64,000 bases of DNA, from positions 22,658,474 through 22,722,473 of the forward strand of contig NC_089724.1 in assembly GCF_035083965.1 (NCBI RefSeq), given 5' to 3'. The notes under the pieces were generated by a model. It was not told where the DNA came from, searched no databases, and saw only the letters and a program-made list of their open reading frames with translations. Of the stretch, positions 9,500 through 41,800 are shown piece after piece. Position numbers and translations under genes: made by a program. The first letter of the stretch is position 1, and the number at the start of each line of letters is the position of its first letter. The DNA is from Branchiostoma lanceolatum (lineage: Eukaryota > Chordata > Leptocardii > Amphioxiformes > Branchiostomatidae).

Positions 9500-9577
9500 T
9501 ATCCACCACGTGATCCCGCGGTCACCTGATAACCGCGCCGATCTCGCGAGAATTGACGAGACCAGGACCAAGCCAAG
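9500..9577 (+). promoter_or_regulatory. NOP56 core promoter: E-box and TCTCGCGAGA element
   Basis: CACGTG (9507-9512), the canonical MYC/MAX-type E-box, and the palindrome TCTCGCGAGA (9542-9551), the element bound by BANP/ZBTB33-type factors in CpG-island promoters, lie 66 and 27 bases upstream of the NOP56 start codon. Both are seen directly. Their function here is inferred from their common use in ribosome-biogenesis promoters. No TATA box is apparent. Confidence 0.55.
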
Positions 9578-12500
9578 ATGGTGGGTAGTTCGTGCGTGGT
9601 CCCTAAAACTTGCTAAGAAATTGTAATTTTAGCCCATTTTTTGACGCCATTGCCGAATTGACTTATTTTATTTCATAAAGAGATTAGTTCCTATGTATTG
9701 ACTCAATTTTAGCCGCAGAAGCTTCGAATTAGCGTGTAGAACTGTGTCGAAGATGCAAGGCGTGCAGGGCTGTAGCTTGTGCCATGTGCTTTTCCACTAC
9801 GTGGGAGGGGGGCCCGCAAAATATTTCCCTCAACATTTGGTGTTTCTTCTCTAAGTCGACGGGGAAACATTGACTATTTTATGTGATGAAGGTTAGAATT
9901 AATCACTTCACCTTACGTCATTAGATGTAGTTCAGTTGTTATTCTTCTTCAGAATTCCAGAAGTTGCTTTCTGCAAAAACCTTAGCTGAGATGAGATCTC
10001 AAGGGAATATTTGTGACCTGGTCTAACAAGAATTATAAATTACAGTCTGCTTCAGGCCAGGAGGGAAATATATGTGCTAAGAATGATGTACGGAGCTACA
10101 GTGGTAATTTGGGCACTCAAACAAGAAAAAACACTAAACCATCCAATTTGGAGAAATGTAACTGCTTTTTTTGCAACAGGGGGTTTTACAACACGTGACC
10201 ATTGTTTAACTTTTCCACCCCAATAGAAATATTTTCTGCCATCTTGCAGTACAGGCCGGTCACAATGTTGTTTTACTGAGAATCCCCATGTTATGCAACA
10301 GGAGGTTTTACAACATGTGGCCATTGTTTCAACTTTTCCACCCAAATATTATTTTCTGACCTCTTGCAATTTTCTGTAGGCCAGTAGCAATGCCATTTTA
10401 CTGAAAATCACCATGTTAGATTGTTCCAGTTGTCCTGTAAAAACTGTAGCCTGACCTGTCTGTGTGATGAGAATGGAAGTGCCGTCTGATGTTGCACCTG
10501 ATTAATGATCAATCCAACCCTGATGGACAGGTTTAGGCTCAGGGTTAAACAACCATTGTGTTTTTTGGTCTTAGAAAAATTAAAACCTAACATTTTGATG
10601 AACACAAAAGCCCTTACTGGCAAAGAAAGATGAAAAGATTTCCTATTAAGATTTTCCAGTAAATTGTTAGGAATTCTTTGTCACATAGGCTTGTAATACA
10701 AGTTGTAGCCATTCTGTCTTGTGGTTTTCTATATTTTTGTTACATAATCCCATAATGTACAGTCTTTGCTGAAATGTGCTACAAGAATAGAGTGTGAAAA
10801 GTTGCTGCTAATGGGAGCCACAGGTAAGACCAAGAGTAAGACTAGGTCACTACGTTTTGTGTCCAGGCTGCCCAGTGTGGGATTACTGGCTGAAGAAAGT
10901 TTTTAACTCTGTTGTATTCTGTAAATCAATTTTCTCTGCATGCATGTATCCCCTGCAGGCTGGCCTACACGTTCTGTACGAGCATGCTTCGGGGTACGCC
11001 CTGTTCCGCGTGGAGGAGGTGGAAGAGGTTGGGATGCTCCTACCCACCGTGGAGAAGAGCGTCAAGTCGTACGAAAAGTTCAACTCAACAGTGAAGCTTG
11101 TGGCCTTCTCACCGTTCAAGTCTGGCACAAATGCACTCGACAACTGTAATGCTATTTCTGAAGGTAATAAGAACAGTCATGACTTTTAAAAGGAACTTAT
11201 CTCCCTGTTATGCATGCATTTCAGCCCTGTGCCAGTGATGATCTCCTACTCTCAGAGACTCACGTCACTGATGTCTAGAGTTTCAAGACGGATCTGAGGC
11301 AGAGCAAAAAATTTTAATGCTGTTGTCCATGTTTAAACGGTGAACATTTTCATATCTGATTTTCATACCTCAACATGCCTGATGTATAGTACATTCCTCT
11401 GGCATGGCTCAAAATATCATGTGCATGTGCAAGTTTGCGCACTTAAAATTGTACCCATGCAAGTGATTTCAGATCAGCCTGCAATCTTGCAAGTTACCAC
11501 CTTTAGAAATATATCCCCTTTTACCCATGTAAATTTTCGCTCCAGGTGAAATATTGGTGCTTAATCAAATTATACATTAAGCAACATTTTGTATCCCTTT
11601 TAGACTTTATTCAATCAATTTTTTACGAGTTTGGGACACATTTTTTTGGCCTTGAACAAAGTAATTGGAATGCCACCATTGGAGAGTAGTGGACCCAAAC
11701 TGCACTTTCCCAAATTTGGGAATTGTGTGATAAGAAATTGTATGAAGCACTCTAGTAAGTATAATTTTTTATATAAAAAAAAAAGTAGAAATTTCCAAAA
11801 GCTGTCTTAAAAAATCTACTAAGCTAAGTGATTGAAGTGTTACTTAACATGTTTTTTTGTTAGATTAGATATTGCAAAAAGCTAAAAATTGATAATGCTA
11901 ATTAGTTCATACATTTCAAATATGTGCACAAGCCAAGGATGATGATAACAGGAAACAATTATGACTTTAAAAATTAACTCTGTTAATAGTGATATTCATG
12001 AATATCACCCATGTGCCAATGATGATCTCCTACTCTCAGAGACTCACGTCACTGATGTCTAGAGTTTCAAGACGGATCTGAGGCAGAGCAGATCAATGTT
12101 TAAACAGTGAAAGGATATCTGATTTTCATACTACGGCTTGCAGGTGTATATGATAATACATTCATAGTCACATGTAGTCCTTTGTGTTGGTAGGAGAAAC
12201 CCTTAAGGACATTGGTCATGGATAACGCAAAGTTACTGAAAAGGCCTGTTCATTCAGCTAAACTTTTTTGGTGGTATATCGTATATAACTTAATATGTTT
12301 TGTCTGTTAGTTATTGTAATGGTAGAGCACGATGCCTGCAAAAATCCTGCTCTAACATTTTTTCCATGCCTGATACAGGAATTCTCCATGATGATCTGAA
12401 GGTATTCCTGGAGAATAACTTCCCCCTCAAGAAGAAGAAAGCCACCCTAGGAATTGCTGACTCCAAGATTGGCTCTGCAATACAAGAGGAGCTTGGGATA

Positions 12501-15500
12501 CCGTTGACTGGTGGGGACGTGGTACAAGAAGTCATCAGAGGTATGTTGTAGACCCGGCAGCACAGAATTCAAGCTTGCATCCTGTTGGCTATCTTTTTTT
12601 GTATAGCCTGACCTGTCTGTGTGATGAGAATGGAAGTGCCGTCTGATGTTGCACCTGATTATTGATCAATCCAACCCTGATGGACAGGTTTAGGCTCAGA
12701 GTTTTAAAAAAAACTTGTGCTTCTGCATCTGAAGAGTCTTAGGCCCTCTCCTTTTTGTTGCTGGACAAAGAGCAGTTGAATAAATCTGTTTTACGTATAT
12801 CTTTTGTGCAGGTATGACTCCTGCATACACAATAATCCTTATATCATTCTTTCAAATCTACAGAAACAAGATATGTAATGACCGGACCGCACACATCAGT
12901 CAAACAAATGTGGAACAAGTCTAAGATTTTCTTGAGTGATTGCTAAGGTTTGATTCAAGATACATTCTTCACACTTCCATTTTCTTGACAGGTATCAAGC
13001 TGCATTTCCACCTGCTTGTGAAGGGGCTGACAGAGACGTCGGCCTCTAAGGCCCAGCTGGGCTTGGGTCACAGCTACTCCAGGGCAAAGGTCAAGTTCAA
13101 CGTGCACAGAGCAGACAACATGATCATCCAGTCCATCAGTCTCCTGGACCAGCTGGACAAGGACATCAACACCTTCTCCATGAGGATACGGTGAGGAACA
13201 TGAGCCACACAAACAAGAATACACTACTAATACTCAATACATTGAAGAAGTCTAATAAAAAAAAGTAACATGAAAAGTGTGGCTGGTTTTGCAACAGGAG
13301 GTTTTACAATATTTGTTCCCAATCTTCGACTTTTCCATTACAAGAAGATTTTCTGTCCCTTTGTTGTACATGTAGTTTGCTAAGGGCCACAATTCTGCTT
13401 TGAGGAAAATTATGTCAGATCGTTCCAGTTGTCCTGTAGCCTGACCTGTCTGTGTGATGAGAATGGAAGTGCCGTCTGATGTTGCACCTGATTAATGATC
13501 AATCCAACCCTGATGGACAGGTTTAGGCTCACGGTTTAACAACTGTCATATTTGGTCATCCTTTTTATGGTTAAAGATACCCAAGATTACTGGCTTCTTT
13601 ACCAGTCTGGGATAGATCATAACAGTTAGCACCATGAACTTTCCTGTGATTCTCACCCACGATCCTTTCAGAGAGTGGTACTCTTACCACTTCCCGGAGC
13701 TGGTGAAGGTGGTGAACGACAACTACATGTACGCCCGTCTGGCGAGGATCATCGGGGACAGGAAGCTGCTGAAGGAGGACCGTCTGGAGGAGCTGGAGGA
13801 GATCACCATGGATAGCGCCAAGGCAGAGGCCATCATACAGAGTGCCAAGTCATCCATGGGTGAGTCAGGCAGGGGATAGAACTTCATGGAGAGCACTAAA
13901 CAGAACTTAATGGATAGCACTAACATAGAATGTCAGGGATAGCACATCTTCTTTGACTTTGGAATTGATATTGCATTCTACGAAATTAGCATCCATTTTC
14001 CGATTTTTTTTGCACTATATGGCATGTATTTGCTCATTTTGCAGCTGCTATGTACTTTTTACGTTAAGGACTCCAGGAGCAGTACATGTATAATCAAATA
14101 ATGGATATTACTATACTACTACTTGGAAGACCATGGGAAACACCATGTTAGATCGTTCCAGTTGTCCTGTAGCCTGACCTGTCTGTGTGATGAGAATGGA
14201 AGTGCCGTCTGATGTTGCACCTGATTAATGATCAATCCAACCCTGATGGACAGGTTTAGGCTCAGGGTTAAACACCTGTTTTCTTCATCTTTTGGCTTCC
14301 TACCCTCCAACACGTCCTAACAGAAATGAGACATTCTTAAACAACAAGCTATTCCCCTTATCATTTCTCTGACATGGGTGATTCGGACATTCGTCTTTCA
14401 AAGCACTTCAACGCATCTCAATTCTTTTCTTGCAATGCATACTCAGCAGATTGATTGAAGTTTTCTGGTCATTGTTCTGAAAAGATGGCAACATTGAATT
14501 CCTTAGTATTTTGACGAGAGTGGTTACTGTTGTTATTGTTTTGTCCTGTTTGGGAGGTCAACAATCTTAGTAACTACTCTGTTCCCTATGTTTCAGGTAT
14601 GGATATCTCCCCCATTGATCTGATCAACATCGAGACGTTTGCATCGCGTGTGGTGTCCCTGGCGGAGTATCGGAAGTCCCTGCACGCCTACCTGCAGGGG
14701 AAGATGCACAATGTGGCGCCCAACCTGTCCGCCCTGATCGGGGAGCAGGTGGGAGCACGTCTGATATCGCACGCGGGAAGCCTGACCAACCTGGCCAAGT
14801 ACCCCGCCTCCACGGTACAGATCCTCGGGGCTGAGAAGGCACTCTTCAGGTGGGGAAATATCCTACTTCTGTTACATTCATAACAATGCTATGCTCTCCT
14901 TTACATTCTCATGGCTTGAATGTTTCTCTGTCATCTGCAATATTGCAATTTGAAATGGCATTTTTAAGGATTAGAGGTTCAAACATTGCTCATACCTTGA
15001 CAACCTAAAGTTGGACAGTTGAAAATTTGGGTGTTTCAACTTTGCTTCAGAAGTTGTAACTTTGAGTTTAAACTTTGAGTTTAATGCTTATGATGCCTCT
15101 TTATGCAGAGCTCTGAAGACTCGTGGCAACACCCCCAAGTATGGCCTCATCTTCCATTCCACGTTCATCGGCCGAGCAGGCGCCAAGAACAAGGGGCGCA
15201 TCTCACGTTACCTCGCTAACAAGTGCTCCATCGCTTCTCGGGTGGACTGCTTTGCAGGTTGGTATACAGTTTCCATCAGCAGTGTAAAAAAATGACAGCC
15301 ATAACAGAAAGCAGAGAGTAACAATATGAAGACTTCAAACTATCAAGAGAATGATTCAATATCCAAGTTGAGAACAGCTTGGCTCCCCTGTCTACATGAT
15401 GAAAAAGGAAGTGCCGTCTGATGACATGTTCAGCTGACGATCCAATCCAACCCTGAATGGACAGTTTAGTCAAAGATTTTCTATCATACATGTACCTGGC

Positions 15501-16925
15501 ATTGTTACCAACACAATAAATCTTTGTATTTCATGAAATAGTATAAACCTCCAGCATGTTTTGGTCAGTACAGATTTGTCACTCAGGCTGGAGAAAGGCT
15601 GTTAGCCGCCTGTTACCAGTTGGTACGTCTGAAGTCTGTATGTACATGAAGCCCAGTCTAACCAATGGTCTCAATTGTTCTCCAGATGTTCCGACAGACG
15701 TGATCGGTAACAAGTTACGTGATCAGGTGGAGGAAAGGCTATCCTTCTACGAGACAGGGACAGCACCCCGCAAGAACATCGATGTGATGAAGGAGGCATT
15801 GTCAGAGGTGTGGGGAATCAACTTGTCTTCTTAGCTCTATATCTGTCTCATTGGGCCATGGGCCATGAAATGACACGCAGATACACAACCTTTAAAATTA
15901 AAGGTCCAAACTTTTTTCAAGTTGTAAGACTGAACATCCTCATTGTATAAGGGTACTGTTAAAAAATGAGCGGGTCTCTTCTGTTATTTTGTATTGTAAT
16001 GCATTGAATATTTCCATGCCAGATGAACGAAATGATCGCCAAGAAGAGAAAGGAGGACAAGAAAAAGAAGAAGAAGAGAAAACTGACTGAAAATGGGGAC
16101 CACAATGCCACAACAGACGGGGCCGAGGAAGAAGAGACACCAGCGAAGAAGAAAAAGAAGGGCCAAAGTGAGGGAGAACAGTCAGCAGCTGATGTATCAC
16201 TCAACCAGAGCACTATCACAGACGGAGAGGGGGAGGGGAAGAAGAAGAAGAAAAAGAAGAAGCAGAGTGAGGCTGAGGCGACTGTGACAGAAACAGAGGT
16301 GTCACTGAATGAGAGTGCTGCGGCTGATGGAGAGTCCGATGGCAAGAAAAAGAAGAAAAAGAAAAAGAAGGTATGAGTCAAACTGAAGCACTAAAATTTT
16401 TGTCCATTTTTAAGATACACAATTTTTCTGTGTCCCCTTCTGGGTAGAAGAAGACACATGCTTGTGGGTAATCCCATGTCATATACTTTTGGAACCAACA
16501 TTGGCAAGACCGCTATCTCTAAGAACTGCACCATTGTTAAAGATTTGCCTAAGGGATAATTCGATTGGTTTGTGAACCTGTCTGTGTGATGAAAAAGGAA
16601 GTGCCGTCAGATGTGAAACTGACGAGTCAATCCAACCCTGATCAGCAGGTCCTCTGTAAAGCAGAAAGCTAGTAAGAATGTAAAACTTGATATAGATTGC
16701 ACCGGGAGGGTGGAGAAAATAAGACACTTGGAACTACATGTTTTCTTTTCTGGTTTTCTGCAGGAAGCAGCTGAGCCTGTCGAGGAGGAGGAACCAGCCG
16801 AGACGCCAAAGAAGAAGAAAAAGAAGCAGGCTGAGCCTCTAGAGGAAAGCATGGTTCTCGCAGACGATGAGGGGGAACCGACACCAAAAAAGGAGAAAAA
16901 GAAGAAGAAAAAGGACAAGAAATAG
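9578..16925 (+). CDS. NOP56: NOP56, box C/D snoRNP core protein
   Basis: NOP56 pairs with NOP58 on box C/D snoRNAs and positions fibrillarin for rRNA 2'-O-methylation in the nucleolus. Ten exons fit GT-AG sites and phase: 9578-9580 (ATG alone), 10959-11163, 12379-12540, 12992-13190, 13672-13859, 14597-14849, 15109-15257, 15686-15807, 16023-16370 and 16764-16925. The result is 596 aa, close to the human length. The N-terminal domain ([15 protein letters not shown]) is followed by the coiled coil, then the Nop domain with family blocks such as [17 protein letters not shown] and [20 protein letters not shown], then a tail of Lys runs alternating with acidic stretches (about residues 428-596), the usual nucleolar KKE/D tail. 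Reading through the donor at 15808 would end the protein early. Introns 1-5, 7 and 9 host snoRNAs. Confidence 0.96.
10166..10415 (+). repeat. Tandem ~120-bp duplication in NOP56 intron 1
   Basis: Two copies of a unit beginning GCAACAGG(A/G)GGTTTTACAA and containing AACTTTTCCACCC stand side by side just before the intron 1 snoRNA. A third, more diverged copy lies at about 13291-13425 in intron 4, again directly upstream of a snoRNA. The snoRNA and its upstream flank were therefore copied as one unit. Confidence 0.7.
10448..10539 (+). ncRNA. Box C/D snoRNA, NOP56 intron 1 (copy A)
   Basis: C box GTGATGA at 10464-10470, D' box CTGA at 10486-10489, C'-like TAATGAT, and D box CTGA at 10520-10523. 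A long terminal stem is formed by AGCCT/AGGCT and CCTGTC/GACAGG. The guide before D' is GGAAGTGCCGT. The guide before D is CAATCCAACC, of which nine bases can pair with GUUGGAUUG just 5' of the A-loop of 28S rRNA, from memory of that conserved region. The placement is analogous to SNORD86 and other C/D RNAs hosted by vertebrate NOP56. Orthology is not established. Confidence 0.85.
11224..11305 (+). ncRNA. SNORD21: SNORD21-like box C/D snoRNA, NOP56 intron 2 (copy 1)
   Basis: C box GTGATGA at 11235-11241 and D box CTGA at 11294-11297, with a short closing stem (CTGTGCC with GGCAGAG). The sequence before the D box, GTTTCAAGACGG, equals the 28S guide of SNORD21 as I remember it and is complementary to the conserved 28S stretch CCGUCUUGAAAC. 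In vertebrates SNORD21 sits in an RPL5 intron. Here it is in NOP56. Confidence 0.8.
12012..12089 (+). ncRNA. SNORD21: SNORD21-like box C/D snoRNA, NOP56 intron 2 (copy 2)
   Basis: C box ATGATGA at 12019-12025 and D box CTGA at 12078-12081. From the C box to the end it is almost identical to the copy at 11224-11305, including the GTTTCAAGACGG guide. The downstream flank (GTTTAAAC.GTGAA, then ATCTGATTTTCATAC) is shared too, so the pair arose by a local duplication inside the intron. Confidence 0.8.
12605..12696 (+). ncRNA. Box C/D snoRNA, NOP56 intron 3 (copy B)
   Basis: Nearly identical to the intron 1 copy: same C, D', C' and D boxes, both guides and the extended AGCCT/AGGCT terminal stem. 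It starts 65 bases after the exon 3 donor. Confidence 0.85.
13438..13529 (+). ncRNA. Box C/D snoRNA, NOP56 intron 4 (copy C)
   Basis: Same boxes, guides and terminal stem as copy A. Its upstream flank (GATCGTTCCAGTTGTCCTGT) is shared with the intron 1 and intron 5 copies, and a longer upstream block is shared with intron 1. Confidence 0.85.
14171..14262 (+). ncRNA. Box C/D snoRNA, NOP56 intron 5 (copy D)
   Basis: Same boxes, guides and terminal stem as copy A, with the same 30-base upstream flank beginning CCATGTTAGATCG. Confidence 0.85.
15388..15464 (+). ncRNA. Box C/D snoRNA, NOP56 intron 7 (diverged copy E)
   Basis: C box ATGATGA at 15396-15402 and D box CTGA at 15453-15456. Both guide cores (GGAAGTGCCGT before D', CCAATCCAACC before D) are retained while the spacer between them differs from copies A-D. 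The closing stem is shorter (CTGTC/GACAG). Conserved guides over changed linkers suggest selection on function. Confidence 0.75.
16576..16650 (+). ncRNA. Box C/D snoRNA, NOP56 intron 9 (diverged copy F)
   Basis: C box GTGATGA at 16586-16592 and D box CTGA at 16638-16641, closed by ACCTG/CAGGT. The D guide CAATCCAACC and the upstream GGAAGTGCCGT core are kept, but the D' box reads CAGA instead of CTGA, so the D' guide may be weakened. Confidence 0.75.
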
Positions 16926-25198: not shown

Positions 25199-28100
25199 TT
25201 CCCCGCCCTGAGTTATCTCTGTTATCGAAGGGCGGGGAGGGATGTTATATGCACTCCAAGTCCCCCGCCCTGTGATATCTGTTATCGAAGGGCGGGGAGG
25301 GATGTTATATGCACTCCAAGTCCCCCGCCCTGTGATATCTGTTATCGAAGGGCGGGGAGGGATGTTATATGCACTCCAAGTCCCCCGCCCTGTGATATCT
25401 GTTATCGAAGGGCGGGGAGGGATGTTATATGCACTCCAAGTCCCCCGCCCTGTGATATCTGTTATCGAAGGGCGGGGAGGGATGTTATATGCACTCCAAG
25501 TCCCCCGCCCTGTGATATCTGTTATCGAAGGGCGGGGAGGGATGTTATATGCACTCCAAGTCCCCCGCCCTGTGATATCTGTTATCGAAGGGCGGGGAGG
25601 GATGTTATATGCACTCCAAGTCCCCCGCCCTGTGATATCTGTTATCGAAGGGCGGGGAGGGATGTTATATGCACTCCAAGTCCCCCGCCCTGTGATATCT
25701 GTTATCGAAGGGCGGGGAGGGATGTCATATGCACTCCAAGTCCCCCGCCCTGTGATATCTGTTATCGAAGGGCGGGGAGGGATGTCATATGCACTCCAAG
25801 TCCCCCGCCCTGTGATATCTATTATCGAAGGGCGGGGAGGGATGTTATATGCACTCCAAGTCCCCCGCCCTGTGATATCTGTTATCGAAGGGCGGGGAGG
25901 GATGTTATATGCACTCCAAGTCCCCCGCCCTGTGATATCTGTTATCGAAGGGCGGGGAGGGATGTTATATGCACTCCAAGTCCCCCGCCCTGTGATATCT
26001 GTTATCGAAGGGCGGGAGGGATGTTATATGCACTCCAAGTCCCCCGCCCTGTGATATCTGTTATCGAAGGGCGGGGAGGGATGTTATATGCACTCCAAGT
26101 CCCCCGCCCTGTGATATCTGTTATCGAAGGGCGGGGAGGGATGTTATATGCACTCCAAGTCCCCCGCCCTGTGATATCTGTTATCGAAGGGCGGGGAGGG
26201 ATGTTATATGCACTCCAAGTCCCCCGCCCTGTGATATCTGTTATCGAAGGGCGGGGAGGGATGTTATATGCACTCCAAGTCCCCCGCCCTGTGATATCTG
26301 TTATCGAAGGGCGGGGAGGGATGTCATATGCACTCCAAGTCCCCCGCCCTGTGATATCTGTTATCGAAGGGCGGGGAGGGATGTCATATGCACTCCAAGT
26401 CCCCCGCCCTGTGATATCTATTATCGAAGGGCGGGGAGGGATGTTATATGCACTCCAAGTCCCCCGCCCTGTGATATCTGTTATCGAAGGGCGGGGAGGG
26501 ATGTTATATGCACTCCAAGTCCCCCGCCCTGTGATATCTGTTATCGAAGGGCGGGGAGGGATGTTATATGCACTCCAAGTCCCCCGCCCTGTGATATCTG
26601 TTATCGAAGGGCGGGAGGGATGTTATATGCACTCCAAGTCCCCCGCCCTGTGATATCTGTTATCGAAGGGCGGGGAGGGATGTTATATGCACTCCAAGTC
26701 CCCCGCCCTGTGATATCTGTTATCGAAGGGCGGGGAGGGATGTTATATGCACTCCAAGTCCCCCGCCCTGTGATATCTGTTATCGAAGGGCGGGGAGGGA
26801 TGTTATATGCACTCCAAGTCCCCCGCCCTGTGATATCTGTTATCGAAGGGCGGGAGGGATGTCATATGCACTCCAAGTCCCCCGCCCTGTGATATCTGTT
26901 ATCGAAGGGCGGGAGGGATGTCATATGCACTCCAAGTCCCCCGCCCTGTGATATCTGTTATCGAAGGGCGGGGAGGGATGTTATATGCACTCCAAGTCCC
27001 CCGCCCTGTGATATCTGTTATCGAAGGGCGGGGAGGGATGTTATATGCACTCCAAGTCCCCCGCCCTGTGATATCTGTTATCGAAGGGCGGGAGGGATGT
27101 TATATGCACTCCAAGTCCCCCGCCCTGTGATATCTGTTATCGAAGGGCGGGGAGGGATGTTATATGCACTCCAAGTCCCCCGCCCTGTGATATCTGTTAT
27201 CGAAGGGCGGGGAGGGATGTTATATGCACTCCAAGTCCCCCGCCCTGTGATATCTGTTATCGAAGGGCGGGGAGGGATGTTATATGCACTCCAAGTCCCC
27301 CGCCCTGTGATATCTGTTATCGAAGGGCGGGGAGGGATGTTATATGCACTCCAAGTCCCCCGCCCTGTGATATCTGTTATCGAAGGGCGGGAGGGATGTT
27401 ATATGCACTCCAAGTCCCCCGCCCTGTGATATCTGTTATCGAAGGGCGGGAGGGATGTCATATGCACTCCAAGTCCCCCGCCCTGTGATATCTGTTATCG
27501 AAGGGCGGGGAGGGATGTTATATGCACTCCAAGTCCCCCGCCCTGTGATATCTGTTATCGAAGGGCGGGAGGGATGTTATATGCACTCCAAGTCCCCCGC
27601 CCTGTGATATCTATTATCGAAGGGCGGGGAGGGATGTTATATGCACTCCAAGTCCTCCACCCTGTACTCCAAGTCCCCTGCCCTGTGATATCTGTTATCG
27701 AAGGGCGGGGAGGGATGTTATATGCACTCCAAGTCCCCCGCCCTGTGATATCTGTTATCGAAGGGCGGGGAGGGATGTTATATGCACTCCAAGTCCCCCG
27801 CCCTGTGATATCTGTTATCGAAGGGCGGGGAGGGATGTTATATGCACTCCAAGTCCCCCGCCCTGTGATATCTGTTATCGAAGGGCGGGGAGGGATGTTA
27901 TATGCACTCCAAGTCCCCCGCCCTGTGATATCTGTTATCGAAGGGCGGGGAGGGATGTTATATGCACTCCAAGTCCCCCGCCCTGTGATATCTGTTATCA
28001 AAGGGCGGGACGCCGGGGAGGGATGTTATATGCACTCCAAGTCCCCCGCCCTGTGATATCTGTTATCGAAGGGCGGGAGGGATGTTATATGCACTCCAAG

Positions 28101-28897
28101 TCCCCCGCCCTGTGATATCTGTTATCGAAGGGCGGGGAGGGATGTTATATGCACTCCAAGTCCCCCGCCCTGTGATATCTGTTATCGAAGGGCGGGGAGG
28201 GATGTTATATGCACTCCAAGTCCCCCGCCCTGGGATATCTGTTATCGAAGGGCGGGGAGGGATGTTATATGCACTCCAAGTCCCCCGCCCTGTGATATCC
28301 GTTATCGAAGGGCGGGAGGGATGCCATATGCACTCCAAGTCCCCCGCCCTGTGATATCTGTTATCGAAGGGCGGGAGGGATGTCATATGCACTCCAAGTC
28401 CCCCGCCCTGTGATATCTGTTATCGAAGGGCGGGAGGGATGTCATATGCACTCCAAGTCCCCCGCCCTGTGATATCTGTTATCGAAGGGCGGGGAGGGAT
28501 GTTATATGCACTCCAAGTCCCCCGCCCTGTGATATCTGTTATCGAAGGGCGGGAGGGATGTTATATGCACTCCAAGTCCCCCGCCCTGTGATATCTATTA
28601 TCGAAGGGCGGGGAGGGATGTTATATGCACTCCAAGTCCTCCACCCTGTACTCCAAGTCCCCCGCCCTGTGATATCTGTTATCGAAGGGCGGGAGGGATG
28701 TCATATGCACTCCAAGTCCCCCGCCCTGTGATATCTGTTATCGAAGGGCGGGAGGGATGTTATATGCACTCCAAGTCCCCCGCCCTGTGATATCTGTTAT
28801 CGAAGGGCGGGGAGGGATGTTATTTGCACTCCAATTCCCCCGCCCTGTGATATCTGTTATCTAAGGGTAGGGAGGGATGTTATATGCACTCCAAGTA
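25199..28897. repeat. 60-bp satellite array, ~62 units, each a hairpin
   Basis: The unit reads CCCGCCCT-GT-GATA-TCTGT-TATC-GA-AGGGCGGG followed by GAGGGATGTTATATGCACTCCAAGT. Outer arms CCCGCCCT/AGGGCGGG and inner GATA/TATC can fold as a stem-loop in every unit. Most units are 60 bp and some are 59 (one G lost in the GGGG run). Variant units recur in order (two GATGTCATATG units, one CTATTATCG unit, a 59-bp unit) at about 25.7 and 26.3 kb, about 599 bp apart. A truncated insertion (CCTCCACCCTGTACTCCAAG) recurs at about 27.65 and 28.64 kb. This is higher-order structure from unequal exchange. Long open frames through it are a by-product of the 60-bp period. Confidence 0.95.
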
Positions 28898-30581: not shown

Positions 30582-33500
30582 TCAATCTTCTGACATCTCC
30601 TCCTCTTCTGAGCCCTCCTTCTCTACTTCATTACCGTTGTCCTGTGAACCAAGAGCACCTGAACCAGGATACATATCTGCCAGCTCTCTGTCCTGAGCTG
30701 TTGTAGAAGTTTTCATCATCTCCTCATGCTGATCTTCAGAATCAGATGTTTCACTTTCATCTTCTCTCCCTATGGCGTTGTCAGTATTGTTGGAACCATC
30801 TGAGTCCCTCTCCATCATTCCTGTCCATCCCTTCCTCCCTGTGGAAGGATTTTCCATCGTCTGATCGACATCGTCTGATTCGATCAGGTGGCTTGTGGCA
30901 ATCTCCATTTCGTCTTCAGAATCCCTCCCTAATCGAATGTTGGATAGTCTTACTTTCACTTTTTTGTCCCTCTTCCTTCTCCCTGTGCCGATGGCTCGCC
31001 CCCTTCTTCTTGCCTCTGCCTCTCTGTGGTGCTTCTTTATGTGGGTCTTCAAGTTGGTCTTCTGTACACAGCTATATGTACACACGTCACACTTGTAGGG
31101 CTTCTCGCCCGTGTGTATGAGGAGGTGTGCGGGCATGTTGTACTTGTAGATGGTTTCATACTTGCAGGACTCGTACGGACACTTGAAGGGTTTACTGGGC
31201 AGGTGGGTCATCAGGTGCTCCTCCAACTTGTGTGCTCCATAGAAGATTTTACCGCAGTGGTGGCACAGGTTGTGTGACGTGCCTTTCCCATGCTTGTTTT
31301 TCATATGACACAGGAGCTTATATTTTGAGTTACCGATGAAACTGCACTCCTCACACGGGAAGTCTCCCTTGTGGTTACAGGTCTGAATATGGGTGTCCAT
31401 GTCTTCCCTAATTCCCCAGTAATGCCTACAGTACACACACCGCAGGATCTCAATGTCATGATCACTTTTCAGGTGCTTGGCAAGGTGGTTCTTGTTGGTG
31501 GTTGTGTAGTCACAGTGTTTACACTTCACTGGCCCCTCTCCCAGTCCTGTCAACAAGTCAAAGAATAAGAAATATCTGCAAAACTGGACTATGGGACATT
31601 TAAGGCTTCCCAGAACACTTTGAATTACATCAAATGTCCACAGCACAGACCTTTGGCTGTCTTGCATCTGAGCAGAGCATGAACAAGTTAGATCAGGCAA
31701 TATTTTCTATTTTATATATGTTGCAGACTTGGCTTCATGTTTGAAGTCGATAAACTTGAATACTGCATGACACCACATTTCAGCCTTTGTGTGTGTGGAC
31801 ATAAATCTTTGCCCAAAATCTGCTGCTAAACATGAACTCAGAATATCTATATCAGCAGGAGAGAGCAGACAATAAAACCTTTTTCAGACAACCCTAATTT
31901 GTAACAAAATCTGACTTGACTCACCATGTTTGCTCAGTCGGTGTACTTGTAAACAGTACTTGGTTTTGGATTCATATTCACAGTCATCACACTTGAAAAT
32001 TGTAGTCTTCTTTGTTGCACATTCATCTGGAGGAGTAGAAAACATCATGACACTGTTACAGTGTGTAAATCAGACTGCATAGAACATTAGAAGGGTGGAA
32101 CATTGTGTCATGGGCAAAGCATTGTATTCTTGTTCAAGCAAGAACAATTTGCACCTGGGAATGAAGGGAAAATGTAGAATAGAAGTTGACAAAATCTTAC
32201 CTGAGTGTTTCTGCTGCATGTGTGTGTTGACCCAACTCTGATAGGGGCAACGATAATCACAGATGGTACAGCCATACTTCAGTTCTTCCTTCTTGGTATG
32301 TTTACAGAGAACGTGTGTCTTTAGATGCGAAGCTCGAGAAGCTTTATAGTCACACTTATCACATTGAAAAATCTTTTCCTTGACGCCAACTACGCGAGCA
32401 TTCTTAGTCAGTGTTTTAGGCCCATATGTATATGCATTCACTATTTTCCGCCCGTGTTCTTTCGCGGCATGGCGAATATATTTCCTTTTTTCTTGGAACA
32501 TCTTGTTGCAGTCTGGACACTGAAACTTCCCATTAGGCATGTGTATTTTCATGTGTTCTGCAAGTTCTTTGGGATCATCTGTCTTGAACCTGCATCTTGC
32601 AATCCTGCAGCGTGGGTGCACCTCATCCTCGTGCTTCAGCATCTCCTCCAGGCTGTTTCCAGTGAAACTGCAGCTCACACACACTGCGCCACCCTTGTGG
32701 ACAGTCACCTCGTGGTTGTATATGACGTGGCTCTTCTCGCTGGTGTAGTTACATTGTGGACACTTGTGCTGTTTCCGGTTCCCACGGGGCTTTCGGGGCG
32801 CCCAGTTCTCCACAGCTACCCCATGGTCACGACTGAGGTGGGCGGCATACTGAAGCTCGTAGGTGGAAACAAAACTGCAGTGATCACATTTGTACAGGCC
32901 TTGCCCTTCCTTCCTCTTTCTAATCCATTTCTTCTTCTTCACACCTTCTTTGCTATGACCAGATTTAGCTGGTTCCTTCACAGGGCTGCCCCAATCACTT
33001 TCGTCAGAACTGTTGCCAGAATAGGACTGTTCTGACACACTCACATTCCTCCTTCTCTTCCTGGGTTTTCCATGTTTGTGCTCATGGTCATCTATGTCAC
33101 CACTTGAGTCAGGTGATCTTTCATCAAGATGTACAGGTGTCTCCTTCTTTCTGGCACTCCTCCTTAAACCAACAATCTTTTCATTGTTACTTTCTTCTAA
33201 ATCTCTTTTTGACATTTTCTTGGCTTCTTCATGAGTATGTCCAGCACTGCTACTTGTCCCTGACTGCACAGTTTTCTTCTGTGCATCTTTTCCTCTTACA
33301 GGCACTTGCACAGGTACAGTCTTCTGCCTTGCTGGTTTGCTTGTAACTTCACGCCTCTGTCGACCAGACTGTCTCTTTGGCTTCTTGTCAACAGGTTTAT
33401 CAAACTTGCCATCATCAATGGTAATCTCTGTACCTCCTCCTTGCCTCTTTTTCTTTTTTATGGCCTCCTGTGGTTTGCTTATCTTAGAAGAAGGTTGCCG

Positions 33501-34115
33501 AGTCCTTTTAGTCTGCTGGGTCATCTGTTTCCCAATCCTGTTACTTGGAGAGCTTTTAGCTACACGCTTCTGAGCTGGCCTAGTTGTGGGCTGAGTTTGC
33601 TGAGGAGGAAATGGAGTGTTTGTTTTTGTCTTGCCCTTTCTTGGCATCTCCCTCCTGGGAGCAGTTTGTCTAGAGGATGACATGAGTGTATCTTGTAATG
33701 TTTCTGCTGTTCTTTGCAGGTTGCTTCTTAAAGACATTTTTACATCAGCCTCTTCCTTAGAGCTCACCCCCACATCTAATTGTCCCTTCTTAACTGAAGA
33801 ATCTTTCCTTACCGACAACCCTGATGGCTCTTTCTGGCTCTTTGACACCTTGCTGGTACTACTCGTTTTTGCCTTCTTGTCATTGCCAGATGGTTGTTGA
33901 AAGCGTGGTCTTCTTGAGACAGTGAGAGGGCCGTGGTCCTCACATTCCAGCAGCATAAGAGGAACAGGGTCCAGTTCAGATGGCAGGTGTGCACTGTCAT
34001 CTTTGTCCCTCTCAGAGGCACCTGGTTCACTTTGATTGCTAGCCATAGCTTGGCCCACTTTAGTGTCTGAGGTAGTATTGGTGTTGTTGGAATAGTCTTG
34101 AGACCTTGCAGCCAT
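30582..34115 (-). CDS. C2H2 zinc-finger protein, 14 fingers, ~993 aa
   Basis: Likely a nuclear DNA-binding regulator. Three exons fit in phase: 34115-32201, 32026-31925 and 31546-30582 (stop). The first roughly 400 residues are low-complexity, Lys/Ser-rich and presumably disordered. Seven C2H2 fingers follow (about residues 408-636, starting YKCDHCSFVSTYELQYAAHL), one finger on the middle exon (FKCDDCEYES...), and six on the last exon, including the only TGEKPY linker. The C-terminus is acidic (ending EKEGSEEEEMSED). Many fingers have the CxxCxY/F spacing seen in REST- or ZNF462-like proteins, but I cannot assign an orthologue. The start is the ATG at 34115. The frame stays open further upstream, so a longer N-terminus or a 5' exon is possible. 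Confidence 0.88.
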
Positions 34116-34980
34116 AGTGATGATATCACTTTTTCCCCAACACCCTATTGCAAAAGCAGTATCTGGAAAGAGAAATGACAGGTACTGTTTCAAGCCATTC
34201 ATGACAAAGACAGGCAGACTGATTGACTCATCATTTTTGACTTTTATGCAAGTTATGGCATTTTCAAGGCAGACTATAGTCACATTATCAGACTTTTCTA
34301 ATTGACTGGGGGATAGAAATGGTTTTAACGAAGGCAGGATATAAATCAATTAATGATGATTTAATTAAAAAATGAACAAATTAATTATCACCCCTCCTGA
34401 GTCAATGGAATATCCCTACAGCGTCCTCCATTATCATGGGCAATATTTGCAATCTACTTCGTAAACTCAGAGCCCATTTTAAACCTCTCAACCAGTAGTT
34501 TAAGTTATCTATGCTTAGCGACAGTCTATGTGACATACTATTGACATACCCGCTTTATACCTCTATCGTTGCTGAGCCTGGGGAGCTGGAGCGAGAGGTT
34601 CAAAAATTATAATCTATTGAATCTCTCGCAAAGGAATCTTCCCAGACATCTAAGCTTCTACTTTTTGTGCGGAGGTCTCTGCCAACGTCTCTAGAGCACC
34701 TCTTTTGTCTCCGATCTGATCATGAGACTCTGGACGGTCCCAACTTCACCATTCACGTTCGCGTGCTTCTTTGTCTGTGCCTGGGAAGGATTTGACCTGA
34801 CTTGACCTGACTTGGTTGTGAACGCATCGTAAGGTTTGATAATTTCATGACAATATTTCCGAATTAAGAGCTCTTAACAGCAAAATTATGATTCTAAAAC
34901 CATCAAACATAAATATTACTGAGATATAACTGAATTTTCTGACATTTTTTTGCATTATCAATGAAATACGAAATGAAGCC
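34116..34980. promoter_or_regulatory. Divergent intergenic region, zinc finger / SMIM19
   Basis: The 865 bp between the zinc-finger start (-) and the SMIM19 start (+) probably serve both genes as a bidirectional promoter. No TATA box or strong motif was identified. A tandem TTGACCTGAC repeat lies at about 34790-34812. Confidence 0.4.
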
Positions 34981-38877: not shown

Positions 38878-41800
38878 TCACAGAATCGTGTATAGTATTG
38901 TGACCATTGAAGTAATAGCATATACGACTATAGCAGCACACGGCTGGTACTGTACTGCAACGCCGGATGTTAACGGCAGTTTGGACGGCAGTTCGGGCGG
39001 CGGTGTAGACGGTTTGGGCTGCGGTGTAGACGGTTTGGGCGGCGGTGTAGACGGTTTGAGCGGCGATGTAGACGGTTTGGGCTGCGGTGTAGACGGTTTG
39101 GGCTGCGGTGTAGACGGTTTGGGCGGCGGTGTAGACGGTTTGAGCGGCGGTGTAGACGGTTTGGGCGGCGGTGTAGATGGAGAACCTAGGTGGTTACAAG
39201 AGTCGTTACTCCTCTAACGTTATGGGAAGAAGATTAGAATGAGAAAGTACTGAAACATACATGAAACGACGTCCAAACAACGTCTAAATTCTAAAACGGC
39301 GTTTTGTTATGGATATTGATTGATTAAAAGTTATCTTACGTGTGCATGTCGGGACAGGAGCAGTCCATGATGTGTCAGCTTGACACATCACACTAGAGGC
39401 TCCGTTCAGTACGTATCCCGGGTCACAGGTGAACTTAATTACGCTCTCGTAGGACCTCGCTCTGGTAGTGGGTGTCCGCGCTCCGTTAGTTGGAGCAGTC
39501 AACACCGAACATTGTCCACCTGAAATTTCAAACTACCTTTGATTTCGAGGATATATGTTCTATATGTCCGTGTACCATTTTTAAGTATTGCGAAATAACG
39601 CACTGACCTCCCATTTCCAATCCGGGGCCCGGCCGGGCTGTTTGCGAAAACGAAAAAAAAAAAAAAATTCACATCAAGAAAATACACACTATATGGTAAG
39701 AAGTAATTTTTTTTACGTTTTTTGTCTTTAATTGTCGTTTATATCATATTTTTCCTTACCACAAGCTGGCCGGCCGGGCCCCGGACTGAAAATGGGACCG
39801 AAGCATAATACTCTCTTTGCTACATGGTGAATGTGCGTATACCACATTTCGATGGGTATTGCTAGTATGAATCAACTGGAAAGTCGCCTTACCAAATACG
39901 TGACGTGTGCACGTTGGAACAGAGTTAATCCATGTTCCGTCAGCTTGGCACGTCACAGCGTCAGCGCCGTTCCGTACGTATCCGGTGTCACAGGTGAAGG
40001 TCACCGTGTCCTGGTAGGAGGTCGCTCCGGTAGAGGGTGTCCGCGCTCCGTTGGTTGGGGCCGTCAACACTGGGCATTGCCTGCCTAAAATGGCGTAATA
40101 TAAATCATATAGTCATGTTCGTGTATCTATGACTATGCACGAAAGATACATGTGTGAGGTTCGTTAGTAGACATCCGATTTAGTGCTTGCCAACGTTTTA
40201 GCCTTAAAATAGGACGTTAAATGAAGGTCCCGTGTTTGAGGAGAGTCACACCTTGAGCACGTAAAAGAACCCACCACATCTTTCGAAAAAGAGCAGGGGC
40301 ATGCCCCGGTGTGACTGGATCAAAACATTCCGGTCTAAATGGGGTAGGGAATTTCCCGAGCAGCCTTCGTAACCCCTGCTTCTCCTAATGGGTCAGTGAA
40401 GTCATGCTTGTCTCGAGCATTGATGTTTCTGACCTAGAGTGAAGAGATGTTGCTACAGAATTAGTTTAGTGCTTAGAGGGGTGGCCTTCTACGCCCTTGC
40501 ACTGAGCGAGTTCTTATGCTCTCACCACTATTGTGTCGGGAACAACGTTTTGATACAAATTGCTTGTACATTGTATCTATTAGTGTCTACTTCATCTTAC
40601 GTGTGCATGTTGGAACAGGGTTACTCCATTGTCTGTCATCTTGGCACGTCACAGCATCAGTGCCGTCCGGTTCGAACCCCGGGTCGCAGGTGAAGGTCAC
40701 CGTGTCCTGGTAGGAGGTCGCTCCGGTAGAGGGTGTCCGCGCTCCGTTAGTTGGGGCCGCCAAGAGCGGGCATCGTATGGCTGAAATGGTATTTATATGT
40801 ATCTATGTGGGGAGGAGAACCTAGGTGGTTAACCAGAGTCCTTACTCCTCTAACGTTATGAGGAAAATATTAGAAGAAGGTATCTATGTACTGAAACATA
40901 CATGAAACGACGGTCATTAGTAAACGTCTGTTTGCCAACGTCTAAAGTCTCAAAAGTCTGTTGAAAACCACAATTAGACATTGTATCTATAGAGAGTGCA
41001 AACTGCATTTTGCGTGTGCATGTTGGAACAGTATTAGTTCATGCTCTATTAGTGTGTATCCCCTGTTACAATTTACGAAGCAAGAACATAACATACGACT
41101 ATTCTATTTAGCTAAAAACTATTTCAACGAAGACTCAATGCAAGGTGAATATACATAAAGCTCCACTCACGTGCACCATACAACGCCTGAATCCCTACAA
41201 TATCGTCAGAGTGAAGCAGTGGGTCCTTGTATGAGCCTTTTTGGGTGAAGGGACTCATGATGGATTCATGAACACCGGAATGCTTCAGGCCCAGGGAGTG
41301 GCCAATTTTGTGAACTGCTACATGTAGCAGATCATACTCTGTGGGGGTGGGGTGGGGAGGGGTGGAGAGTGAATTGACAAGGTTAGACAACCAGGTAATA
41401 AGGTGGTGAGTATAAATGTTCCCTTTTCTGATAGAGGTCGCTACATTACGACATACATACATACATTATGAGATAACTTCCTGATGTTTCTGGAATGCGA
41501 CTATCTCTCTTTCTGGGACTAGACAGTGTCATAACGAAAACTATGCATGCCTGGACCCAGGGCTGTCTCTAGCTTAAAATTTTTGTCCGTCCCACTCACT
41601 GTTTGGGAGCCAATTATGTTAACTTTCGTTGGTAAATCTGTCATTTTAAGCAAATGGACATGCATTTTCAACAATTTCATGGAGCTAAGTTCAGATTTTT
41701 TTGGACGAATGGAATCCAGGGCAGAGAAAAATTCCTGTGGAATTTTTGGAGTTCTTGCGGACTGCACACAATATACTATTACATTGAATACTATCCGGCT

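Follow-up and report, generated by a model that had tools for sequence, protein, structure and literature searches.

Six intronic copies of a box C/D snoRNA with predicted SNORD49 and SNORD69 guides in the NOP56 gene of a lancelet

Why does a gene for a C/D snoRNP core protein carry eight C/D snoRNA copies in its own introns? In the window, that is the whole stretch of 64,000 nucleotides (64 kb) of Branchiostoma lanceolatum DNA that was analysed, six copies of one box C/D snoRNA and two of another were found in the introns of NOP56. The locus offers a natural test of whether a core-protein gene is regulated by the C/D snoRNAs located in it; should dosage alone be involved, the case is an ordinary one. 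We hold with considerable confidence that the copies represent ordinary box C/D methylation guides encoded in introns, which duplication within a single host gene has multiplied.

The host gene is NOP56. It is complete on the + strand at 9578-16925, comprises 10 exons with GT-AG introns and encodes 596 aa; a single open frame was obtained among the splice-site combinations tried. Using the spliced open frame, Pfam and PDB, the coding exons were placed at 9578-9580, 10959-11163, 12379-12540, 12992-13190, 13672-13859, 14597-14849, 15109-15257, 15686-15807, 16023-16370 and 16764-16925 (+ strand). The product contained the Pfam domains Nop (3e-87) and NOP5NT (3e-25). Its first 441 of 596 residues matched human NOP56 (PDB 7mq8_SA) with an E-value of 6.4e-211, while human NOP58 was the weaker match (9.3e-97). 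Upstream of the gene the palindrome TCTCGCGAGA at 9542-9551 (+ strand), 27 nt 5' of the ATG, occurs once in 64 kb versus 0.01 expected occurrences and is a probable promoter motif. A CACGTG box is located at 9507-9512 (+ strand), also upstream of the ATG; this hexamer is present 9 times in the window, and the box near NOP56 is not special on its own. CACGTG has been reported to mark promoters of ribosome-biogenesis genes (PMC2570694).

The six-copy snoRNA is found once each in NOP56 introns 1, 3, 4, 5, 7 and 9. Its D' guide core GGAAGTGCCGTC and its D guide core CAATCCAACC each had exactly six occurrences in the 64-kb window, without exception on the + strand, and both cores were exact in 6 of 6 copies. 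The copy in intron 1 (10448-10540) has its C box at 10464-10470, the D' core at 10475-10486, the D core at 10510-10519 and the D box at 10520-10523, and is closed by a 14-bp terminal stem. The copies in intron 4 (13438-13530) and intron 5 (14171-14263) have the same core; these three agree at every one of 95 aligned bases, with 1 difference from them in the intron-3 copy (12605-12697). Folding of the four near-identical copies yielded terminal stems of 14 pairs plus one bulged base, and their C' box was judged by eye to be poor. The remaining two copies are diverged. They are found in intron 7 (15387-15463; C box 15396-15402, D' core 15407-15418, D core 15443-15452, D box 15453-15456) and in intron 9 (16575-16652; C box 16586-16592, D' core 16597-16608, D core 16628-16637, D box 16638-16641). 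Among the 95 positions, 44 differ in one or the other of these two copies and 21 in both; their linkers differ, while both guide cores are unchanged. The terminal stem of the intron-9 copy is interrupted, as seen by eye and on folding.

The second snoRNA is present as a pair in intron 2, also on the + strand. Copy a lies at 11230-11302 (C box 11235-11241, D box ending at 11297) and copy b at 12014-12086 (C box 12019-12025, D box ending at 12081), and both are 93% identical over 101 nt. Copy a, the only one tested, scored 21.7 bits against the SNORD21 model (E 0.057), far short of the cut-off of 63. SNORD21 gave the top score among 16 weak Rfam matches of this copy, whereas SNORD103 had the slightly better E-value (0.053 versus 0.057). 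The naming is therefore weak, and the pair is perhaps SNORD21-like. The stretch GUUUCAAGACGG before the D box is common to SNORD21 (U21) and the pair; in chicken, however, U21 is listed with RPL5 as host (PMC2653536), while the pair is hosted by NOP56.

A perfect C box and CTGA were found in 8 of 8 copies of both snoRNAs. Using a pattern of a perfect C box, CTGA 40-130 nt further on and a terminal stem, both strands were scanned together with 20 Markov controls. The scan gave 8 matches on the + strand and 0 on the - strand, compared to a mean of 0.35 per strand and a largest value of 2 in the controls. A chance origin of the copies was thus rejected by the Markov controls (8 versus 0.35), and minus-strand C/D RNAs were rejected with 0 scan matches. 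The scan recovered 7 of the 8 copies named in the preliminary description; the one it did not detect was the intron-9 copy, probably owing to the interruption in its stem. An extra C/D-like candidate at 9883-9989 in NOP56 intron 1 (+ strand), with a perfect C box, CTGA and a 7-pair stem, is weak and probably due to chance. An exact core search and a repeat comparison, at the thresholds used, found no further copies of either snoRNA elsewhere in the 64-kb window. The preliminary description had named eight C/D copies in the NOP56 introns, six of one snoRNA and two of another, and the core searches and perfect boxes bore this out. Its four copies near-identical over about 92 bases with a long terminal stem reappeared in the 95-base alignment and the 14-pair stem, and its two copies with diverged linkers and both guide cores retained are those of introns 7 and 9.

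Which RNA do the six copies represent? The intron-9 copy is closest to SNORD49. It scored 39.5 bits against the Rfam model (RF00277; cut-off 37) and was the sole copy above the cut-off, the other five remaining below it with 28.8 (intron 7), 21.0, 20.4, 20.4 and 20.4 bits. The alignment of the intron-9 copy spans the C box, the D' guide and the C' box and breaks down at the D guide. Its D half departs from the SNORD49 consensus and has the letters of SNORD69: CAATCCAACCCTGA is common to the SNORD69 consensus and the D half, with a weak score for the whole model (E 0.77). Judged from these sequence matches, the D' guide is that of SNORD49, with 28S C4456 as predicted target, and the D guide is that of SNORD69, with 28S G4494, 38 nt from C4456, as predicted target. 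With SNORD49 (U49) the snoRNA has the C box and the D' guide GGAAGUGCCGU in common, and in the intron-7 and intron-9 copies also the C' region CUGACGA; in contrast, the D guide of the SNORD49 family is not present and the SNORD69 D guide is found instead. With SNORD69 it has the D guide CAAUCCAACC-CUGA in common, but only this half.

The predicted targets were examined on L002, a partial eukaryotic 28S sequence which is filed under a bacterial MAG, does not come from this animal and is recognised by Rfam as LSU rRNA. For the D guide the best-ranked site was a 9-bp perfect duplex with the fifth base on a G, and this held for each of the three variants of the D guide. In the near-identical copies the D' guide formed 5+5 pairs around one mismatch at a C located 38 nt upstream of the D site. 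Ranked by pairing run, this D' site came fifth and last among the sites listed for the near-identical copies; for the intron-7/intron-9 variant it fell outside the five listed. Consequently, L002 alone would not pick the D' site, and its identification rests on the SNORD49 match. The mismatch in the D' duplex is a U-U pair beside the target base. As the Rfam SNORD49 consensus guide carries the same letters, it is probably ancestral. The guides of the intron-2 pair gave no convincing site in L002, which holds parts of 28S only. Four 28S patterns gave 0 matches each against viral contigs, and a fifth gave L001, which starts too late in 28S to include the targets.

For the comparison with published sites we took HBII-210 to be a synonym of SNORD69 and Cm4426 to be C4456 in older numbering. 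The listed site of SNORD49 is C4456 and that of SNORD69 is G4494 (PMC12288042), and in chicken U49 is listed with C3911 and HBII-210 with G3949 (PMC2653536). Both published pairs (C4456/G4494 and C3911/G3949) are 38 apart, like the predicted sites on L002. Human U49 is tabulated with Cm2409 as well as Cm4426 (PMC3511168); Cm2409 would have belonged to the D guide of the SNORD49 family, since exchanged. Two site names looked for in a Drosophila snoRNA paper did not occur in it. One lancelet RNA would thus join guides for 28S bases 38 nt apart, whereas in chicken two RNAs in two other hosts are listed for them, among these HBII-210 as a separate RNA in GNL3 (PMC2653536). Birds and mammals keep these two guide sequences in separate RNAs. 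The case illustrates the multiplication and recombination of guide RNAs.

The arrangement as such is known. In what follows we take NOL5A to be the older name of NOP56. For chicken it was reported that intragenic duplication is behind almost all snoRNA paralogues and that guiding functions recombine between snoRNAs; NOL5A hosts U57, HBII-55 and a U53-like guide, NOP58 hosts HBII-95 and HBII-234 in two copies each, U14 occurs three times in HSPA8, and another host carries four copies (PMC2653536). Hence, snoRNAs hosted by NOP56/58 and duplication inside NOP58 have already been described. The lancelet gene resembles the chicken cis duplications in NOP58 and HSPA8 in having copies of one guide in several introns of one host, but differs in number, with six copies compared to at most four of one snoRNA per host among the chicken table entries compared (PMC2653536). 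Unusual are the six copies and the joined SNORD49/SNORD69 guide. Among the literature matches listed, covering titles and the starts of abstracts, no description of lancelet snoRNA genes or of the joined guide was found, which is not proof of absence.

A duplicated unit around the intron-1 copy (10290-10570, + strand) has its partner at 13286-13557 in intron 4, with 76% identity over 292 aligned columns. A repeat of about 50-130 nt upstream of the snoRNA, present twice in intron 1 (10168-10345) and once in intron 4 (13286-13337), is part of this unit. Between introns 1 and 4 the core was identical at 92 of 92 positions compared to 131 of 169 (78%) in the flank (Fisher P 1.6e-8), a test that is partly post hoc, as the core length of 92 bases was taken from the finding itself. 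With the same core length, introns 4 and 5 gave 92/92 in the core and 39/43 in the flank (P 0.009), and introns 1 and 5 gave 92/92 and 43/45, which is not significant (P 0.11). The intron-2 pair gave 77/82 in the core compared to 34/47 in the flank (P 0.001). The core is thus constrained relative to the diverged flank, which for introns 1 and 4 is consistent with purifying selection, probably together with gene conversion. At linker bases that vary in the intron-7 and intron-9 copies, introns 1, 4 and 5 showed no differences (P 0.005 to 1e-5 if these bases diverged like the flanks), and these invariant linkers suggest gene conversion besides selection. Gene conversion alone, without any dosage benefit, could be the source of the core identity.

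The same data bear on the idea that the copies are non-functional and decaying, either retroposed or duplicated, and alike by chance or recent origin. The intron-3 copy is alike over about 100 nt only and is then followed by an A-rich run, as expected of a retroposed copy, and its flanks have four 6-mers in common, compared to an average of 1.1 over 500 control positions. However, three of these four 6-mers are T-rich and none abuts both ends of the copy, nor did the flank search find a direct repeat abutting both ends. The A-rich run fits a retroposed origin of this copy, while the common 6-mers are at most suggestive. For the copies as a set, flanks down to 78% next to a core of 92/92 in introns 1 and 4 argue against a recent and unconstrained origin, and 6 of 6 copies retain their C and D boxes and both guides intact. 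We give the decay explanation very little credence.

A different role was considered in the preliminary description, namely an amplified loop of the kind known from vertebrate NOP56. SNORD86 is reported to be an orphan located in NOP56; in its RNP form it redirects splicing to a donor further downstream, the product being an NMD-sensitive, snoRNA-ended transcript (PMC11028025, PMC9892063, PMC10324135). It carries A-to-G changes in the C and C' boxes (PMC10234308) and has alternative donors on either side (PMC11028025, PMC10234308, PMC9892063). As a repeated cis sensor of this type, a lancelet snoRNA bound by core proteins within the pre-mRNA would shift splicing to a downstream donor and yield an unproductive transcript, making NOP56 self-limiting. 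The host protein is the same, and in human as in lancelet a C/D snoRNA lies within a NOP56 intron. In contrast to the orphan SNORD86 with its changed boxes, the lancelet copies are predicted guides with rRNA targets and perfect C/D boxes. The cytoplasmic SNORD86 product is described as conserved across eutherians (PMC11028025), which offers no grounds for expecting it in a lancelet.

Splice donors pointed in both directions. The real NOP56 donors (n=9) scored 5.5-9.0 bits. An unused, near-consensus donor CAG/GTAAGA at 10823, 300 nt after the intron-1 copy, reached 11.2 bits and is stronger than all of them; sites as good as this one occur 5 times in the window on both strands. Intronic pseudo-donors of at least 5.5 bits were located downstream of a snoRNA in 9 of 10 cases compared to 46% of positions (P 0.005), in a test that is post hoc, uses hand-entered donor weights and has 4 of the 9 downstream pseudo-donors in intron 2. 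When they were counted after the second intron-2 snoRNA the figures were 6/10 versus 30% (P 0.048), and without intron 2, for the six other snoRNA introns, 5/6 versus 36% (P 0.026). On the other hand, in the four near-identical copies the interval starting 25 nt ahead of the C box and ending 60 nt beyond the D box contained no donor scoring more than 0.7 bits, and in introns 4 and 5 no downstream donor exceeded 4.2 bits up to 60 nt before the acceptor. Intron retention gives early stops in 9 of 9 introns; as these include two introns without a snoRNA, the stops say nothing on a sensor. Given the rRNA targets, the perfect boxes and the lack of a competitive donor next to the four near-identical copies, the amplified loop was not supported, and we regard it as unlikely, though stronger unused donors do lie farther downstream.

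Both roles might be combined, with NOP56 acting as factory and gauge. The bound intron-1 snoRNA, and perhaps others, would then steer splicing to downstream donors such as 10823, resulting in an out-of-frame or snoRNA-retaining transcript. A hypothetical extra exon of 61 nt in intron 1 (10763-10823, + strand; acceptor picked by eye) ends in this donor, and its inclusion would cause a frame shift with a stop at codon 85. If true, this would make the gene a relative of the mammalian SNORD86 loop, independent of it and multi-copy, with working rRNA guides in place of an orphan. We consider this combination improbable.

The explanation by multiplied methylation guides agrees best with the features of the copies. 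Boxes were found in 8 of 8 copies and a stem passing the scan in 7 of 8, and the D guide fits rRNA with its fifth base on G. Each of the six copies would be released from its NOP56 intron after splicing, cut back as far as the terminal stem and assembled into a snoRNP, which would methylate two 28S bases in the peptidyl-transferase centre, C4456 through the D' guide and G4494 through the D guide (human numbering). The intron-2 pair may take the role of SNORD21. A larger number of copies in each NOP56 transcript would give more guide RNA, in step with NOP56. A dosage device for one guide RNA had also been considered in the preliminary description. Intact boxes and guides, rRNA targets and the constrained core support it better than a sensor, and the dosage benefit itself remains our inference.

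As regards processing, vertebrate C/D snoRNAs were reported to favour a site some 50 nt 5' of the branch point (PMC8162545). From D box to 3' splice site we measured 435 nt in intron 1, 1081 and 297 nt in intron 2, 311, 158, 350 and 229 nt in introns 3, 4, 5 and 7, and 122 nt in intron 9. Assuming branch points 20-50 nt before the acceptor, 0 of 8 copies are located at the preferred distance. Long terminal stems help snoRNAs in non-preferred intron positions, and those of the four near-identical copies probably permit RNP assembly away from the preferred distance. Passages of PMC10932220 and a literature search did not describe such help.

Several other features were observed in the window. 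In a minisatellite at 25201-28896, a 60-bp unit is repeated about 60 times; the unit contains a GC-rich palindrome (CCCCGCCCT...AGGGCGGGG), and the repeats are 92-98% alike in the long rows. Rfam gave five weak Termite-leu matches there. At 39611-39795, matches to MIR8562 and MIR841 were obtained on both strands with E-values of 1e-6 to 6e-5, far below the cut-offs, such as a long palindromic stretch might give. On the - strand, long open frames at 30582-31700 and 32070-34349 contain C2H2 zinc-finger-like motifs, read by eye, and are probably exons of a zinc-finger gene.
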